25,523 nt of DNA from a virus, in the IMG/VR virus record IMGVR_UViG_3300005096_000128, positions 1-25,523 of that record; one strand, 5' to 3'. The notes beneath the pieces are model-generated. The model had not been told where the DNA came from and did not search any database. It saw only the letters and a program-made list of their open reading frames with translations. The translations under genes were made by a program, and so were the position numbers. Shown one piece after another: positions 2,802-16,941 of this stretch. Each line of letters opens with the position of its first letter. Positions within the stretch are counted from its first letter, which is position 1.

Positions 2802-3152
2802 TCATCTACCGTCCCTATCATTGTAGGGACACCTGTAAGGTATGACCTTCCTATCACCTCTGTTTACCTCGTCGATGAGAGTGCACGGTGGTTTGCATAC
2901 CTGGCATCTGGCATATCTGTGGTGAATGCTCCACACCATCGCCAGGTAGTGTCCCGCCTTCAGTAAGTCCTTCTCGTCCATAGTGGTGGGATACCGGCTG
3001 ACGTACTTCAGCACGTTACCCAGGGCAAAGCTCACCAGGTCGAGCTTACTGTGTATCAGGTCTATGGTCTCCACGCCACCCCTCGCATATTTGTCCACCT
3101 TTGTCTCCTCAATCCACTCCTTCAGCCTGTCCACGTACTTCTCCTCATTCAC
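2802..3152 (-). CDS. DUF3310-like protein with C-terminal cysteine cluster
   Basis: Start GTG 3152 has GGAGGTG six bases upstream. A GTG at 3161 would overlap that site and is less likely. In the 116-residue product, residues 26-70 match the pattern of DUF3310-type phage proteins: an IDLI helix, a GN-x2-KY motif (45-50), Arg 53 and the DLLKAGHYL helix (62-70). These are small helical proteins of nucleotide metabolism or regulation found next to phage nucleotide kinases; the biochemical role is unresolved. The C-terminal extension has Cys 83, 86, 90 and 108, a likely metal site not typical of the family. Eight bases overlap with the upstream MazG-like gene. Confidence 0.65.
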   Translation of the reverse strand: MNEEKYVDRLKEWIEETKVDKYARGGVETIDLIHSKLDLVSFALGNVLKYVSRYPTTMDEKDLLKAGHYLAMVWSIHHRYARCQVCKPPCTLIDEVNRGDRKVIPYRCPYNDRDGR

Positions 3153-3468
3153 GTCCAGCACCTCCCATAAAGTCCGTTATTTTCCCGTTTTTCAGCAGCT
3201 CCCGTTTTTTCCGCTCCTCCAGGTGGATTATCGTCCCAACATCAGCCACTCCAAGCCCGCACAGGACACCCACACCCTCCATGCAGAAGGCAGTCCTCAC
3301 CAGCTCCCGCTTCACATCCCCGACGTAGGCTCTCCCCTCCCTGTACTCCAGGAGAGTGGTGGAGAGCCTCATGAGCTGTTCCACGGTGTCTATCAGGACT
3401 TTATCCTTGCCGAATCGCTTCAGGTACTTCTCGTGTAGCCCCCTCCTCAGCTCATAGCCCTTCAGCAC
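3145..3468 (-). CDS. MazG-like helical protein, possibly inactive
   Basis: The start chosen is GTG 3468, six bases after GGAGGG. ATG 3486 lacks a site at normal spacing and would overlap the 34-residue gene. The 107-residue product resembles short phage MazG-like nucleoside triphosphate pyrophosphohydrolases: a helix with VEQLMRLSTTLLEYREGRA, then a second helix (ELVRTAFCMEGVGVLCG) where the family has E-E-I-A-D-x-x-I-M-L-E-Q-L. The acidic metal ligands of the usual EExxE and ExxD motifs are largely replaced (EQxxR, ELVRT), so it may be catalytically dead or regulatory. The similarity is in pattern only, so the call is tentative. Nucleotide-pool context (reductase operon) fits. Confidence 0.5.
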   Translation of the reverse strand: MLKGYELRRGLHEKYLKRFGKDKVLIDTVEQLMRLSTTLLEYREGRAYVGDVKRELVRTAFCMEGVGVLCGLGVADVGTIIHLEERKKRELLKNGKITDFMGGAGRE

Positions 3469-4106: not shown

Positions 4107-5972
4107 CTAAAGTGTACACGACTCCGCATCCTCACACTTCCTGACCGGCTGCCCCTCCCGGCTGCCGTCCCTGTACACCGTTATCCCCTTACAGCCCCAG
4201 TCCCACGCCTTCACGAATATCTCCTCCACATCCCTCTCTGTGGCGTGGCTGGGAAGGTTCACCGTCTTACTGACACCATTCTGGATGTACTCCTGCCAGG
4301 CAGCCAGCACCCTGAGGTGCTGCATAGGGCTTATATCGTGGGTGGTCTCCAGCAGCTCCTCGTCAACCACCTTCTTTAACGGGTGCTCCCACCTGAACCT
4401 TTTCCCCAGGATGTGGAACTCCTGAGAGTAGGCGAAGTTGGGCTCAATACCCGAACTCACCCCCGCTATTCTGCTGAGCGTCCCGGTAGGTGCGATGGAG
4501 GTAACGGTGGCATTCCTGACCCTGAGCTCAAAGTCAGTATCCCAGAGGGAATCCTCCCAGGCGGGAAAGACACCCCTCTCCTCCGCCAGCCTTTCACTCT
4601 CCCACACCGCAACGTCATTGAGGACACTGCCAACATAGTCAATCACCCCGAACACGTCCTTACTGGAGTACTTTACCCCCATCAGGAGGAGCATATCGTG
4701 GAATCCCATCACTCCGAGCCCAATCCTGCGGGTAGCCAGCGTGGCGACCTTTATCTGGGGCAGCGGGAACTTATTCACGGAAATTACGTTATCGAGGAAC
4801 CGCACCGCAACGCTTATGGTGTACTTAAACTTATCGTAGTCGAGCTCGCCCCACTCGTCCACCATGTTGGCGAGGTTTATCGAGCCCAGGTTGCACGACT
4901 CATAAGGGTGCATCGGCACCTCCGAGCAGTTGTGCACCGCAATCCCGTTAATGAATGCCCAGGGCTGCTCCTCGGTCATCTTGAAGTCGTACACGGGCTT
5001 ATACCCGGCGTCCTCAATCTTTACGACCTCTCTCGGTGTGGTCGGAGTAACTACTCGCTCACCAAGACAATCCTTAGCCGGCTTGAACCCCTCGGTCGTC
5101 ATCACCTGGTGCTCCGGGGTGAGCTCCAGAGTCATGCCGTTGCTCAGAACCAGCCTGATGCACCTCTTCACCCCGGTAAACCAGCTCCTCTCCCAGTCCT
5201 CAATCCTCACCAGCCCGTCAGGGGTGAGGACAAGGGAGCCCTCTGCTATACAAGGATTCGTCGCCCTTATATCCCCCCAGTGAGGCAGGACGTTATCCCT
5301 GTTTATCGAGTCGTAGAACAACAGTCCCGGCTCACCGTTTTTCCACGCCTGGTGCACTATCAGCTCTAAGTCCTCCCTGCTACTGGGACTCTCCATATCT
5401 TCGTCAGAAATCATCACGCTGATGTTAAAGTTCTGGAGCTCCTTCCCGTCATCCTTAGCCGTTACGAACTTCCTGAGCTCGGGGTGGGGGAAGTCCAGGA
5501 TACCCATGTTCGCCCCACGGCGCTTTCCACCCTGCTTTATAACGTCAGTGGCTGCGTTAAAGACCTTCATAAAGGAGACGACTCCGGATGCGACGCCGTT
5601 GGTGCTCCTCACAGGCGAGCCCTCGGGACGAAGGGGTGAGAAGTTAAAGCCCGTCCCCCCACCACTCTTGTGAATGAGAGCCATATGCTTTAACGTGGTG
5701 AAAATCCCCTCCATGCTGTCTCTAATTGGGAGGACGAAGCATGCAGAGAGCTGCCCCAGTGGAGTACCGGCATTCATGAGTGTTGGGGAGTTGGGCAGGA
5801 AGTCGAGGTTGTACATCAGCTCAAAGAACCTCTTAGCCCACTCAGTCCTGTTTCCGGGCTTCTCCGCCCCGGCAACAGCCTTCGCCACCCGGGCACACAG
5901 CTTCTCCCAGTCCTCACCCGGGAGGTAGTACCTCTCCCTTAGAATATCCTCGGCTACCGGACTCAACCTCAT
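4107..5972 (-). CDS. nrdJ: Class II (adenosylcobalamin-dependent) ribonucleotide reductase, intein-containing
   Basis: Converts ribonucleotides to deoxyribonucleotides. Start ATG 5972 has GGTGAT close upstream and lies downstream of an AT-rich promoter-like stretch; a GTG at 6047 would read through that stretch and has its GGAGGT touching the start. The 621-residue precursor shows, in order: PNSPTLMNAG, SACFVLP (Cys 78), the HKSGGGTGFNFS loop, KQGGKRRGANMG, NFNISV, catalytic Asn 239-Pro-|-Cys 349-Ser-Glu 351, PYESCNLGSINL (Cys 360), APTGTLS (494-500), and C-terminal Cys 613 and 619, the likely reducible pair. A 108-residue intein separates Pro 240 from Cys 349, so the enzyme (513 residues, short for the class) is inactive until splicing. 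There is no ATP-cone. Adenosylcobalamin can be supplied by the adenosyltransferase of the same operon. Confidence 0.95.
   Translation of the reverse strand: MRLSPVAEDILRERYYLPGEDWEKLCARVAKAVAGAEKPGNRTEWAKRFFELMYNLDFLPNSPTLMNAGTPLGQLSACFVLPIRDSMEGIFTTLKHMALIHKSGGGTGFNFSPLRPEGSPVRSTNGVASGVVSFMKVFNAATDVIKQGGKRRGANMGILDFPHPELRKFVTAKDDGKELQNFNISVMISDEDMESPSSREDLELIVHQAWKNGEPGLLFYDSINRDNVLPHWGDIRATNPCIAEGSLVLTPDGLVRIEDWERSWFTGVKRCIRLVLSNGMTLELTPEHQVMTTEGFKPAKDCLGERVVTPTTPREVVKIEDAGYKPVYDFKMTEEQPWAFINGIAVHNCSEVPMHPYESCNLGSINLANMVDEWGELDYDKFKYTISVAVRFLDNVISVNKFPLPQIKVATLATRRIGLGVMGFHDMLLLMGVKYSSKDVFGVIDYVGSVLNDVAVWESERLAEERGVFPAWEDSLWDTDFELRVRNATVTSIAPTGTLSRIAGVSSGIEPNFAYSQEFHILGKRFRWEHPLKKVVDEELLETTHDISPMQHLRVLAAWQEYIQNGVSKTVNLPSHATERDVEEIFVKAWDWGCKGITVYRDGSREGQPVRKCEDAESCTL
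4929..5252 (-). other. Mini-intein (108 residues) within the reductase
   Basis: The in-frame insertion begins with Cys 1 (codon 5252-5250) and ends with His-Asn (codon 4931-4929), followed by the reductase's catalytic Cys as the +1 nucleophile. Block A is CIAEGSLVLTPDG. Block B is GMTLELTPEHQV, with Thr 45 and His 48. Block F begins VYDF (Asp 89) and the end is INGIAVHN with penultimate His 107. The usual block F His two residues before Phe is Trp (PWAF). There is no room for a homing endonuclease, DOD or HNH. The commonly described mini-inteins are about 130-150 residues, so this is unusually compact. The junction motif NP|C is a known insertion point in reductases. Confidence 0.92.
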
Positions 5973-6095
5973 AACATCACCTGCCCCTACTCCGCACCTT
6001 ATCGTCAACAAAATTTGCTGTAATAGGTATTTAGTGATTGATGGCACACCTCCGGAGGTAATAGTGTTGTTGCGGTGGGTGGGTGGGTTATTCTA
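5973..6095. promoter_or_regulatory. Divergent control region between the two transcription units
   Basis: This is the only place where genes diverge, so it should hold promoters for both the reductase operon (left) and the late operon (right). About 6008-6045 is AT-rich (AAAATTTG, TAATAGGTATTTAGTG) and could supply TATA elements for both directions, though none is a perfect match. It is followed by the 12-base palindrome ACCTCCGGAGGT (6048-6059), which presents a GGAGGT on each strand. A G/T-rich run (6073-6090) precedes the terminase ATG. Operator function of the palindrome is inference. Confidence 0.6.
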
Positions 6096-6096
6096 A
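6064..6096 (+). other. Possible 10-residue leader peptide before the terminase gene
   Basis: GGAGGT (6054-6059) is followed four bases later by GTG (6064), opening a ten-codon frame, MLLRWVGGLF. Its stop TAA (6094-6096) overlaps the terminase ATG (6096-6098) as TAATG. In-frame TTG codons at 6067 and 6070 are alternative starts. The overlap is the same kind of coupling seen at other junctions in the window, and it explains how a ribosome recruited at a distant GGAGGT could reach the ATG. The frame is very short, so chance is possible. Confidence 0.35.
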
Positions 6097-7814
6097 TGCC
6101 TCACAAGAAGCGCATCAGAAAGAAGAGAAAGACAGGACACATCAGGTGGAGCCCTTTTACAGAGGAAGGCAGGAAGAACATCCAGGAGCTCCAGAAGATG
6201 GTGCTCTCCGGTCTCACAGATGAGGAGATTGGGGAGCGCCTTGGCTTAAATGCCCGCTACGTATCTCAGCTCAGAACTCGCCTGAAAAAGAAGTACGGGA
6301 TTGACCTCAGGAAGAGAAAAGAGAAGATAAAAATCCCGCCGAGTGCCAGGAAGGAGCTCCGCAGGGGAGTTAAGACCAAGCTCGACGAAGATTTGGGCAC
6401 CCGTACCAAGAAGCTCTTCGGTGGCAGGAAGGTAGAAGTTCCTGGAATCCTCCAGCTTTCAGACGAAGAGCTCTTCTACCTCAGGGAGCACCCGGAGGAG
6501 TTCGCCCGCAGGTGCATAATCTGGAATGGAAAGAGGCTGGAGCTGGACGACTACCAGATAGCCTGGATTAAAGACCCTGCGAAGTTCAAGATAGCCAATA
6601 AGTCCCGCAGAGTAGGCTTATCCTTTGCAACTGCTTTTATGGCATTCCACAGGGCAATTTTCTACCCCGGGAGCGTGGAGCTCTTCGTATCCATCAAGGA
6701 GGACAGGGCTAAAGAGCTCATGGACTACGTTTACGCCTTTGCCGGGAGCAACCCGGAGCTCTTTGACGGAATTTTCGTGGAGAAGCAGAGGCTGTACTGC
6801 TCTCTGACCAACGGCTCCAGAATCTACTCTCTCTCCAACTCCCCGTCGGGTGTGAGGGGAATCCCTCAGTTCAAAGACGTTGACGTGTACATAGATGAGT
6901 TCGCCCACTTTAAGAGCGGTCAGGATGAGCGCCTCTACCAGGCTCTCATAGCGTCCGTGAGTCTCGGAGGTACCATGAGCATCTGGTCAACCCCCTTCGG
7001 CAAGCGGGGGCTCTTCTATAAGATTTGGCAGGAGAGCGACCCCAACCACGATAAGTACAACGGATATTCGAGACACGAAATACCCTGGTGGAAGTGCCCG
7101 AGAATTGATAAAAACACAATCGAAGCAATAAAAAGAGCTGTTGACCCGATTACTTTCCGCCAAGAATTCTGCTGCGAATTCGTATCTTCAGGAGAAGAGC
7201 TTTTCACAGAAGATATTATATTAGACGCCCAGGAGGACGGAATACTAATAGACGAACCTTATTCGACCAATCCCTTTTACATAGGTGTAGATTTTGCTCA
7301 GAAGCACGACTCTACTGCAATAGTTGTGGTGGAATATGCCGACGACGCATATATAGTCCGCCATATAGAAGAGGTGAAGGGCAGAGGCATAGAGTTCATA
7401 ATCCCCCGCATCGAATCTCTGAACTCCAAATTTCGCCCCACTGGTATTTATTGTGATGAGACGGGCATGGGTATCCCCCTTGTCAGGGAGCTCTCCAACC
7501 GTCTCGGCTCGGTGGTGCAGGGTATAACCTTCACGAACCAGAAGAAGGACGCCCTGATAATGAACCTGTGGCACCTCTTTAACGACGGGAAGATAAAAAT
7601 CCCACCCCACGAGGAGCTTAAGAACCAGCTCCTGCGGATGGAGCGCCAGGAGACTCCGACCGGAGCTCCGAAGTACACCGGAAAGGTGGAAGGTAAGAAA
7701 GATGACCTGGTATGGGCTCTTGCACTCGCCTGCCACTCAGATAACCGTCGCTGGAGTGGTGTTATATCTTTCGGAGATGTTGACGTGCTGGACGGGCTCA
7801 TAGATTTTGCGTAG
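6096..7814 (+). CDS. terL: Terminase large subunit with N-terminal helix-turn-helix
   Basis: The DNA-packaging motor, 572 residues from ATG 6096 (GTG 6075 would add seven). Residues 1-20 are highly basic and about 30-68 form a helix-turn-helix (LTDEEIGERLGLNARYVSQLRTRLKKKYG). The ATPase part has a deviant Walker A, KSRRVGLS (169-176), of the type seen in Mu-like terminases, Walker B VYIDEFA (264-270) and a coupling motif SIWSTP (295-300). The RNase H-like nuclease has acidic residues in GVDFA (Asp 399), YCDETG (Asp 454) and KKDDLVWA (Asp 536/537). No separate small terminase is seen nearby, so the fused DNA-binding domain may recognise the packaging site. The stop lies close upstream of the portal start. 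First gene of the late unit. Confidence 0.93.
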   Translation: MPHKKRIRKKRKTGHIRWSPFTEEGRKNIQELQKMVLSGLTDEEIGERLGLNARYVSQLRTRLKKKYGIDLRKRKEKIKIPPSARKELRRGVKTKLDEDLGTRTKKLFGGRKVEVPGILQLSDEELFYLREHPEEFARRCIIWNGKRLELDDYQIAWIKDPAKFKIANKSRRVGLSFATAFMAFHRAIFYPGSVELFVSIKEDRAKELMDYVYAFAGSNPELFDGIFVEKQRLYCSLTNGSRIYSLSNSPSGVRGIPQFKDVDVYIDEFAHFKSGQDERLYQALIASVSLGGTMSIWSTPFGKRGLFYKIWQESDPNHDKYNGYSRHEIPWWKCPRIDKNTIEAIKRAVDPITFRQEFCCEFVSSGEELFTEDIILDAQEDGILIDEPYSTNPFYIGVDFAQKHDSTAIVVVEYADDAYIVRHIEEVKGRGIEFIIPRIESLNSKFRPTGIYCDETGMGIPLVRELSNRLGSVVQGITFTNQKKDALIMNLWHLFNDGKIKIPPHEELKNQLLRMERQETPTGAPKYTGKVEGKKDDLVWALALACHSDNRRWSGVISFGDVDVLDGLIDFA

Positions 7815-7824
7815 GAGGGGTTTT

Positions 7825-9231
7825 TTGCAGTTAGTTATCCTTGCCTCTCAGGAGGAGACGACTCAGAAGCGCAGGACGTACCTCAGCAGAGCCCCTATTG
7901 TAGGGTTCTGGGAGGATGGTAGGGTAACAAGAGACCTCCACGAGCTCCTGGAGCTCTACAAACAAGACCCTATGGCTCAGAGGGCAATTGACACCAAGGC
8001 GAAAGACCTCTTCGAGGCTGGTTTTGAGATTGTGGGGCTCGAAGAGGAGGAGAGCAACGTAATAGACGAGCTGAAGCGTCTCCTCCGTCGTGTCAGATTT
8101 AAGGAGAAGGCGTCCGCCTGGGCTCGGGACGCTATGGTCTATGGCAACGGCTACCTGGAGATTATCTACGCTGGCGACACCGCTGCCCCCGAGCAGCCTC
8201 CCAACGGGACGGATATTGCGGACGTGGTGCTTGTATCCCCACGGCAGATGATTATCGTCGAGGACAACGACCCCGAGAGCCCGGAGTACGGAAAAATCGT
8301 GGGCTACCTCTCCATCCCCCCGATGGGTGGGAGGCAGTTCCCCGAGCGCCTGATTATCGACAAATCCGAGGTCGAGATGTACCAGGGACGCCTGATTCAC
8401 CCCGACCGCATCCTTCACCTTAAGTTCAACTCCCTCTCCGACTCTCACCTCGGAATGAGCCTTCTGGAGCCCGCCTACCACGTCCTGAAGTCCAAAATAG
8501 ATGCTGACAAGGTGCTTGGCACGATAATGGTGAGGTTCGCCAAGCCCATCCTCGATATTGAGATAGAAAACGGCACAGTAGAGGAAATTAAGAAAGCAGG
8601 GCAGTATGCAGCCCTCATGAATAAGCACGTTAATGAAGTCTCCTTTATCGCCCACGACGACAAGCTGAAGCTGGATATTAAGGGTGCCCAGGGGAAGGCT
8701 ATCCCTCCACGGGACTACATGGACTACCTGGTGGAGCAGCTCGCCGTGTGCTTCGGGATACCCAAGACCCTCATAGTGGGAGCAGAGCAAGGCAGCATCT
8801 CGGGCTCCGACCTGAACCTGGTATCCTACTTCCAGTCCCTCGAAAAAGACCAGCAGACCGTCCTCACACCTCTCATCCTGGAGCTCTTCAGGAGGTACTG
8901 GCGGGTTAAGTACGGTAAAGACCTCCCAGAGGATATAGATATACGCTGGAACCGCCTGTATTCCGACGAGCTCGCATCCGAGAAGTTCAAGACCCTCGGT
9001 ACCCAGAACCTCATAGCAGCCTACAACGCAGGACTTCTCCCCAGGGAGGGTGCGAGGAAGAAGCTGTGTGAGATGTATGATATTAAGTACGAGGACGACG
9101 AGGAGGCTTATCAGAAAGGTGGAAAGGGCACCCCTCCCCCCCCGAAAGCTCCTGAAAAGCCCGAAAACCCCGAGCAGCAGGTAAATCCCTTCGGAGGTAA
9201 GGAAGATGGAAAAGATAACCCTGAACAGTAA
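7825..9231 (+). CDS. Portal protein
   Basis: Forms the dodecameric ring at the head vertex through which DNA passes. The TTG start at 7825 follows GGAGGGG by four T residues; an upstream TTG at 7807 would overlap the terminase stop. The 468 residues show portal features: the ARDAMVYGNGYLEI segment (about 101-114), a beta-rich wing region with VLVSPRQMIIVE, a long helical stretch with AKPILDIEIENGT, and the clip/crown region PRDYMDYLVEQLAVCFGIPKTLIVG followed by SGSDLNLVSYFQSLEKDQQTV. The C-terminus is Pro/Lys-rich and disordered. Its end overlaps the protease start by 26 bases. Order TerL-portal-protease-capsid is canonical. Confidence 0.92.
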   Translation: MQLVILASQEETTQKRRTYLSRAPIVGFWEDGRVTRDLHELLELYKQDPMAQRAIDTKAKDLFEAGFEIVGLEEEESNVIDELKRLLRRVRFKEKASAWARDAMVYGNGYLEIIYAGDTAAPEQPPNGTDIADVVLVSPRQMIIVEDNDPESPEYGKIVGYLSIPPMGGRQFPERLIIDKSEVEMYQGRLIHPDRILHLKFNSLSDSHLGMSLLEPAYHVLKSKIDADKVLGTIMVRFAKPILDIEIENGTVEEIKKAGQYAALMNKHVNEVSFIAHDDKLKLDIKGAQGKAIPPRDYMDYLVEQLAVCFGIPKTLIVGAEQGSISGSDLNLVSYFQSLEKDQQTVLTPLILELFRRYWRVKYGKDLPEDIDIRWNRLYSDELASEKFKTLGTQNLIAAYNAGLLPREGARKKLCEMYDIKYEDDEEAYQKGGKGTPPPPKAPEKPENPEQQVNPFGGKEDGKDNPEQ

Positions 9232-10610: not shown

Positions 10611-11507
10611 ATGCCCATAACTACGACCGTAATCAACACCGGTATAATGAACCGCCAGCAGGCGGAGGCTTTTGTGAGGCTCGCCCAGGAGCCCACCGTC
10701 CTGCTGAAGGAGGTTCGCACGAAGGTTGTGAACCACCCCAAGGGTCAGATTGACAAGATAGCGGTGGGTGAGCGCCTGCTCCGCAAGGTTGGAGAGGCTG
10801 CGACTCCCCCGGCAGAGGTTGACCCCACCTTCTCCAAGGTGGACTACGACACCGTTAAGGTGATGCTGAGGTACAGCCTCACACGTGAGGCTATCGAGGA
10901 CAACATAGAGAGGCAGGGACTGGTGAACACCGTTACCACGATGTTCGCCAGGCAGTTCGGTATTGACCTGGAGACACTGGGCTGCGTTGGCGACTCCACG
11001 AGCGCCGATGCCTTCGTGAGCATAGATGACGGCTGGGTGAAGATAGCCCAGAACAGCGCAGCCGTCAACACCTTCGACAACGCCGGCAACGGCATCAGGA
11101 AGGAGGTGTTCAGCGGTCTCATAAAGGCTCTGCCCAATAAGTACCGCACCATGCCCGGGCTTAGCTGGATAATGAGCCCCAACACCTACGAGGACTACAA
11201 GGACTACCTCACCAACAGGGCTACACCCGCCGGCGACCAGATACTGGTGGGCAGCTCCCCGGACGACTTCTCCGTCCGTCCCAGGGGTATCCCCGTCATA
11301 ACACCGCCCGCCTTCCCGGACACCGAGGTGTGGCTCACCTTCCCGAAGAACCTCATCTTCGTGGTTCAGAGGGATATAACGGTGAGGAGCACACAGGTGT
11401 CTGACGATGTGCTCGACCTCGACCTGTACGCCAAGTGGAACATGACCGCCAGAGTGGACTTCGTTATCGAAGAGCCCTCTGCCATAGCCAGGGTTGTGAA
11501 CCTGTAA
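10611..11507 (+). CDS. Major capsid protein, HK97-like fold
   Basis: 298 residues with an ideal GAGGTGGTG site before ATG 10611. Position after portal and protease/scaffold, length and sequence pattern identify it: an N-terminal arm, VNHPKGQIDKIAVGERLLRK, a helix-rich P-domain (LTREAIEDNIERQGLVNTVTTMFARQFGIDLE), a segment naming substrate-like loops (PGLSWIMSPNTYEDYKDYL), then beta strands with RGIPVITPPAFPDTEVWLTFPKNLIFVVQRDI and a C-terminal strand RVDFVIEEPSAIARVVNL. The chain lacks an N-terminal delta domain, so folding probably relies on the scaffold fused to the protease upstream. A T-rich tract follows the gene. Confidence 0.9.
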   Translation: MPITTTVINTGIMNRQQAEAFVRLAQEPTVLLKEVRTKVVNHPKGQIDKIAVGERLLRKVGEAATPPAEVDPTFSKVDYDTVKVMLRYSLTREAIEDNIERQGLVNTVTTMFARQFGIDLETLGCVGDSTSADAFVSIDDGWVKIAQNSAAVNTFDNAGNGIRKEVFSGLIKALPNKYRTMPGLSWIMSPNTYEDYKDYLTNRATPAGDQILVGSSPDDFSVRPRGIPVITPPAFPDTEVWLTFPKNLIFVVQRDITVRSTQVSDDVLDLDLYAKWNMTARVDFVIEEPSAIARVVNL

Positions 11508-15567: not shown

Positions 15568-16941
15568 CTGGCGGTCATCTGGTCTTACGGGCTGCCCAGA
15601 ATCGAGGGCAAGCTCTGGTCTTACGGTCGTCCTTACTATGTAATCTACTACACATACGTTAGTCCCGGGGCTACGATTGTCCTCGGTCAGTACGCACTGG
15701 GCTCTCTGGGCTACTTCCTGGTAACCGTATCAGAGAATATTACTCTGACGGATACTCTCTCCAACCAGGTCACCGCAACCGTCGCAGATACCGTCCAGGT
15801 TACTGACTCCGCCACCCTTTCTGTAATCGTAAACGTTGCCGATTTGGTATCGGCAGCGGAGTCCCCCAGTATCACGTCCTCCACAACAGTCCAGGACGTA
15901 ATCAACCTCTCCGAGACGCCCCTCCTTAACGTTAACATCACCGCCCAGGACGGAATCGTCCTGACTGACTCCATCCTTAACGACGTAGCCCTCATAGTCG
16001 GAGAGGTGGTGTCCCTCTCCGATACGACCTCGATAAAGGCGGACGTATCGGTCGCAGATGCAGCGTCCCTCCTCGACACCTTTAGCGTGAAGGCGGAGGT
16101 GCCCGTATCCGACGCCTTCACGATTACGGAGGTCGTAACGTCCTTCTGGCTGGAGGGGCAGGTTTACGTCTATGAGACGTTTACCACTTCCGACAGCCTC
16201 ACCACCTCGGCTGAGGTACCCGTCCAGGACACCGTAACCGCATCGGACGTAATCTCCCACATAGCCGTCTCACTGAAGGTGGCGGACGCCACCACCCTGA
16301 TTGACTCTCTGCTGACCGAGGCGGGGCTCTCGGTCGTGGACGCCGTGAGCCTCGCCGATGGTGTTGCGCAGGTTTACAGTACCGTTGACCTTCAGGACTC
16401 GGTTGCCGTCCAGGACGCACTGACGGAGCTCAGAGCTAAGAGCTCGGTAGAGGACGTGTTGAGCCTCACAGAGAACCTCACCTTCGCCACCAGCCTGAAG
16501 GTGGGTGAGAACCTCTACCTAGTAGATGCGGTTGCGGAGATAGCCCGCAAAATCTACATCCGCCTGGTGTTTCTTGCAGAGAAGAAGTACGAGTTCTCCC
16601 TCCCGGAGAAGCTCTACACCATCGCAGGCGACCAAAATAAGAAGTACAGTATATTTACTGAGGAGGATAATGATATGTTTTACGTCGGAGAGACTTTTAA
16701 GTACAAGGTTCAGATTAAGGACAAGGTATCGGGTGTGCTCTCCGACCCCGATAGCGTCAAGATAACCGCCTACCTTAACGGAGTCAAGAAGATTGATGAC
16801 CAGCCGATGCTGAAGGAGAGCACCGGGGTGTACTACTACGAGATACCCCTCGACGCACCCGGGAACTGGGTAATCAAGATAACGGCGACCGCCGGGAACA
16901 TCGTCCAGATTGAGAAGGACACCCTGTATGTGAGGGAGTGA
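15568..16941 (+). CDS. Repeat-rich tail fibre protein with Ig-like C-terminus and CTG start
   Basis: An in-frame TAA (15565-15567) directly precedes CTG 15568, GGAGGTGA (15555-15562) is five bases upstream, and no ATG, GTG or TTG occurs in frame before TTG 15844. CTG is therefore the only plausible start. The 457-residue product starts with AVIWSYGLPRIEGKLWSYGRP, typical of phage fibre N-termini. About 50-330 consist of some fifteen tandem repeats of 18-20 residues with consensus V-x-D-x-V-x-L-x-D-x-L, a beta-repeat shaft. The C-terminal about 90 residues (FYVGETFKYKVQIKD ... GVYYYEIPLDAPGNWVIKITATAG) are an Ig-like domain. Probably a long fibre reaching towards the host surface. Confidence 0.8.
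   Translation: MAVIWSYGLPRIEGKLWSYGRPYYVIYYTYVSPGATIVLGQYALGSLGYFLVTVSENITLTDTLSNQVTATVADTVQVTDSATLSVIVNVADLVSAAESPSITSSTTVQDVINLSETPLLNVNITAQDGIVLTDSILNDVALIVGEVVSLSDTTSIKADVSVADAASLLDTFSVKAEVPVSDAFTITEVVTSFWLEGQVYVYETFTTSDSLTTSAEVPVQDTVTASDVISHIAVSLKVADATTLIDSLLTEAGLSVVDAVSLADGVAQVYSTVDLQDSVAVQDALTELRAKSSVEDVLSLTENLTFATSLKVGENLYLVDAVAEIARKIYIRLVFLAEKKYEFSLPEKLYTIAGDQNKKYSIFTEEDNDMFYVGETFKYKVQIKDKVSGVLSDPDSVKITAYLNGVKKIDDQPMLKESTGVYYYEIPLDAPGNWVIKITATAGNIVQIEKDTLYVRE

Follow-up and report, generated by a model that had tools for sequence, protein, structure and literature searches.

A putative 108-residue mini-intein at the catalytic cysteine of a viral class II ribonucleotide reductase

Described mini-inteins and the viral reductase gene

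A described reductase mini-intein at the same bond as the insert reported here is that of Mth RIR1, which comprises 134 residues, lies after Pro and before Cys of the reductase and is likewise devoid of the His of block F. In the Mth RIR1 mini-intein the A-to-B strand pair is retained. The smallest natural mini-inteins have been given as 134 residues (PMC4031507), and gp41-1, with 125 residues, has been named the smallest intein (PMC12245125). The literature that could be searched yielded no natural intein of about 108 residues, which does not prove that none exists.

The window, i.e. the whole stretch of DNA that was analysed, is a virus record of 25,523 bases, in which tailed-virus genes for terminase, portal and capsid were found, all on the plus strand (Table 1). 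The reductase gene lies on the minus strand and adjoins the terminase frame. It occupies an open frame from 4107 to 6047, in which the ATG at 5972, preceded by an AGGTGAT ribosome site, is the likely start; the precursor computed from this frame has 621 residues, and 513 once spliced. The NrdJ_Z profile TIGR02504 matched with an E-value of 6.4e-169 and a score of 563 bits, its cut-off being 400, and the protein could be aligned with the B12-dependent structure 1XJK of T. maritima. The B12-dependent profile, the catalytic N-P-C-x-E motif and the partner Cys residues assign the enzyme to the class II NrdJ family; the extein was intact and its best matches were class II enzymes.

Several neighbouring frames were also recorded. 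An ATP:corrinoid adenosyltransferase (CobA/BtuR; 1941-2630, minus; Pfam E 1e-33) that has additional Cys pairs is encoded close to the B12-dependent reductase gene and may let the virus produce the cofactor that its reductase needs. It gave no tblastn match among 50,697 phage records and one weak partial match only in a scan of IMG/VR. A DUF3310/nucleotide-kinase-associated protein (2802-3161, minus) belongs to the same gene block, and a small basic Cys-rich protein (CTLCGRRF...CPKCKKEK; 1546-2094, minus) had no family match. The translation of a tail-region protein (15844-16941, plus) suggests a build of repeated units, in which V-x-D and D-S/T elements recur. Pattern scans of IMG/VR with the capsid and terminase proteins yielded no relatives, and by these scans the virus looks isolated.

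Table 1. Positions of the reductase gene, its insert and the virus genes in the window
Feature	Position	Strand	Basis
Terminase	about 6075-7814 (also given as 6099-7814)	+	
Portal	7807-9231	+	
Capsid	10611-11507	+	
Class II ribonucleotide reductase gene	4107-5972	-	TIGR02504 profile and 1XJK alignment
N-extein	5253-5972	-	frame, homologue and 1XJK alignment
Putative 108-residue mini-intein, Cys1 to Asn108	4929-5252	-	frame, profiles, homologues, predicted fold
Cys1, first nucleophile of block A, after Asn-Pro of the N-extein	5250-5252	-	invariant in 37-sequence alignment
Site of the missing A-to-B strand pair (motif N2), residues 19-22 DWER	5187-5198	-	alignment and Thr-B position
Block B, T45-P-E-H48	5109-5120	-	translation, alignment
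Block F Asp89 (F:4), within VYD	4986-4988	-	translation, alignment
Pro97-Trp98, where block F usually has its His	4959-4964	-	alignment; spacing of gp41-1 (PMC12245125)
Block G, His107-Asn108	4929-4934	-	translation, alignment
Cys+1, nucleophile of the C-extein and thiyl-radical Cys in reductase catalysis	4926-4928	-	aligned to NPCGE of 1XJK
C-extein, with the SCNLGSI Cys and the C-terminal Cys pair	4110-4928	-	frame and 1XJK alignment

The insert, its junctions and its predicted fold

Translation of the minus strand from 5252 to 4929 gave exactly 108 residues (CIAEGSLVLT...GIAVHN), flanked in a single open frame by GDIRATNP before and CSEVPMHPYESC after. The preliminary description had read this segment as an intein of very small size, lacking an endonuclease and placed immediately in front of the catalytic Cys. 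The elements on which it relied, namely Cys1, TPEH, VYD and a terminal His-Asn followed by the catalytic Cys, were all present in the translation; motifs, profiles and intein-less homologues agreed with such an element, for which we infer splicing. The class 1 set was kept throughout (Cys1, Thr and His of block B, His107-Asn108 and Cys+1), and the distance of 41 residues from His48 to Asp89, with no endonuclease motif, is that of a mini-intein. Profile searches likewise recovered an intein: TIGR01445 scored 24.5 bits, exactly its cut-off, and Pfam Intein_splicing gave an E-value of 5.7e-6 with 26.7 bits, which is under the gathering score of 35.8, so that automatic annotation would miss the 108-residue intein. 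Third-position GC was alike in intein (0.76) and extein (0.74).

The exact junctions had been left to alignment with intein-less class II homologues. Such an alignment placed them unambiguously, as NPCGE ran uninterrupted across the same bond in 56 of the 91 relatives found by protein search, while in most of the others Asn-Pro and Cys were separated by an insert. Scanning viral contigs for the pattern His-Asn/Cys-Gly-Glu-Gln-Pro contributed a further 50 contigs. Besides the window, 72 loci, many of them redundant, had an intein of 123-410 residues at exactly the same NP/C bond; this count leaves out L103, whose apparent 106-residue insert was a parsing artefact, its NPC falling inside a truncated longer intein. 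The uninterrupted homologues and the 72 allelic inteins make the junctions firm and mark the site as a common intein site. An ordinary reductase domain is ruled out, since the intein-less homologues read through the site. Inteins usually favour conserved catalytic motifs, and the occupancy of the NP/C bond across many lineages fits this habit; judged by the sequences compared, the site is an ordinary, widely occupied one and the intein family is already known.

The scans made here found no near kin of the intein. Among the matches listed for about 594 genomes taken from the L013 and L080 phyla there was no insert of 108-residue size, these matches being partial intein matches in long open frames, plus L013 itself; a VHNC-EVP pattern scan for near kin returned only larger, more distant inteins. 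A phage DNA polymerase (L097, 4001-4363) harbours a mini-intein of about 120 residues that has the same start, CIAEGSLVLT, as the intein of the window.

AlphaFold2, carried out on an alignment of 37 inteins of the NP/C site, predicted a complete HINT fold (pLDDT 97.9, pTM 0.88, all residues at 90 or above), a structural model having been suggested as a check; as alignment-based prediction tolerates deletions, this high pLDDT is no proof that 108 residues fold. The best Foldseek matches of the predicted fold were all splicing domains, led by Mtu RecA (2in8, TM(query) 0.92, rmsd 1.5 Å), with gp41-1 (6riz) at 0.88. In a single-sequence run, i.e. without relatives, pLDDT reached only 35.7, and because the prediction collapses in this way the claim of a HINT fold leans on the family.

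Size, relatives and block F

What is new is the size of 108 residues. The next shortest inteins at the site were L139, with 123 residues on a 470 kb contig, and L102, L113 and L133, with 125. In the L139 intein (466-834) block B reads TPDQ, Gln replacing the conserved His. The Thr of block B stands at position 45 in the 108-residue intein, at 49 in L117 and at about 57 or more elsewhere, a comparison that covers the loci with a reliably readable block B, L117 being read from its sequence. The A-to-B spacing was the shortest among all loci. The canonical HINT strand pair (motif N2) was not found; in this segment gp41-1 exceeds the 108-residue intein by about 15 residues, and the Mtu RecA mini-intein does so by 24. 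As read from the alignment, the saving in size exceeds the loss of an endonuclease and falls mostly in the A-to-B stretch, the expected place of the N2 strand pair. The earlier view of a notably compact intein without endonuclease therefore stood as to compactness (108 residues vs 123 in the next shortest), but loss of the endonuclease alone does not account for it.

A tree of the splicing parts placed the 108-residue intein together with L003 and L117, at a local support of 0.80. L117 is a 313-residue intein with an endonuclease, and L003 also keeps one. Since L117 is already short between A and B and still has its endonuclease, the A-to-B shortening probably came first and the endonuclease loss second, as far as a short alignment can tell. 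The series L003 (Thr-B 57), L117 (49) and the window (45), with the endonuclease lost only in the last, would then represent a natural path of miniaturisation. The allelic inteins (L117, L003, L139, L102, L013 and others) share the bond, the nucleophiles and the HINT splicing part, and the nearest show about 33-43% identity in aligned columns; they differ in length (123 to 410 residues), in their longer A-to-B spacing and, in most, in an endonuclease of LAGLIDADG- or HNH-like type.

In block F, Asp89 (F:4) was kept and the His was absent, with Pro97 and then Trp98 in this region. If gp41-1 (His114...Asn125; PMC12245125) sets the distance between this His and the terminal Asn, the substitute is Pro97 and Trp98 is the next residue; the absence of the His had thus been recognized correctly in the preliminary description, but not its replacement by Trp. 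Trp also follows the His position in L102, L104, L138 and L139, L135 has the same Pro-Trp, and one allele group carries Asn at the His position (INAFDANG). Absence of this His is, by these sequences, common at the NP/C site. The Asp and His positions of block F have been described as less conserved (PMC4031507).

Putative splicing and comparison with known inteins

Taken together, sequence and predicted fold indicate that the insert very probably functions as a cis-splicing mini-intein of class 1 and represents one allele at the reductase NP/C site. Cys1 would take up the N-extein as a thioester, aided by Thr45 and His48, and the reductase Cys+1 would attack this thioester to give a branched intermediate. 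Asn108 would then cyclise with the aid of His107, the usual block F His being absent, and the exteins would be joined as ...ATNP-CSEVP..., restoring the catalytic N-P-C-x-E motif and freeing the 108-residue intein. Such a spliced product and free intein would follow from established splicing chemistry. The intein probably derives from viral inteins of the L117/L003 type that carried an endonuclease and had already lost most of the A-to-B strand pair; subsequent loss of the endonuclease would have left about the smallest HINT domain able to carry all splicing residues. The missing strand pair, the absent block F His and an extra block F residue could jointly weaken splicing.

That the insert is instead a decaying intein, in which the A-to-B deletion destroyed splicing and left a dead viral reductase, would be consistent with the shortest spacing of all loci, the lack of the block F His and the failure of the single-sequence fold. 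This is quite improbable, however, as blocks A, B and G retain all their nucleophiles and assisting residues, the open frame and the catalytic Cys residues of the reductase have been kept, L117 retains a long endonuclease at nearly the same A-to-B spacing, and the Pro-Trp of block F is common to L135. It is extremely unlikely that faulty assembly or sequencing of this metagenomic contig produced the short A-to-B segment and that the real intein is longer. Only a single record is available and the scans found no second copy, but the loss is a multiple of three that leaves the frame intact, the residues on either side align well, and L117 separately has nearly the same shortening.

With the intein lying between Asn-Pro and the radical Cys, no activity is expected of the precursor; it may be soundly inferred that the unspliced enzyme, which cannot have an intact N-P-C-x-E, would not work, as had been proposed before. 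The proposal went on to a possible temporal or redox switch. In the corresponding rival reading, splicing conditional on temperature, redox state or infection stage would control the viral reductase. The expected inactivity of the precursor and, in principle, the redox sensitivity of Cys1 and Cys+1 speak for such a switch, but the inactivity applies to every allele at the NP/C site and is therefore no sign of one. Known disulfide-trapped precursors use a Cys in the N-extein near the junction, and the N-extein near this junction (GDIRATNP) has none. The same bond is shared by the 72 loci, serving many lineages as an ordinary homing site, and neither a regulatory nor a conditional-splicing feature was found in the sequence. 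Control of this kind appears very doubtful, and the reading was dropped for want of a supporting feature. An unlikely extension of the preferred reading is that the insert is the smallest natural cis-splicing intein known, that it splices without the A-to-B strand pair and that marginal stability slows or conditions splicing, thereby gating the viral reductase.

If the mini-intein splices, the natural size record would fall from about 125 to 108 residues, the HINT fold would prove able to do without a part regarded as standard, and a smaller splicing element would be directly useful in protein engineering. Little new would be learned on regulation, as the insertion site is common.

Among known inteins, the Mth RIR1 mini-intein is 26 residues longer. 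The splicing domain of Mtu RecA (2in8, 3igd; 139 residues), from which the endonuclease was removed by engineering, is the nearest fold in the PDB; its surplus of 31 residues includes 24 in the A-to-B stretch. The compact viral-type HINT splicing domain of gp41-1 is likewise similar (TM 0.88), but differs in its Ser+1 extein, in S-x-x-H as block B and in the presence of the block F His114. With its residues at His63, Asp107, His114 and Asn125 (PMC12245125), against His48, Asp89, Pro97 and Asn108 in the 108-residue intein, gp41-1 is longer by 17 residues, 15 of which precede the block B His; the 108-residue intein has three fewer from this His to the Asp and one more after the Asp.
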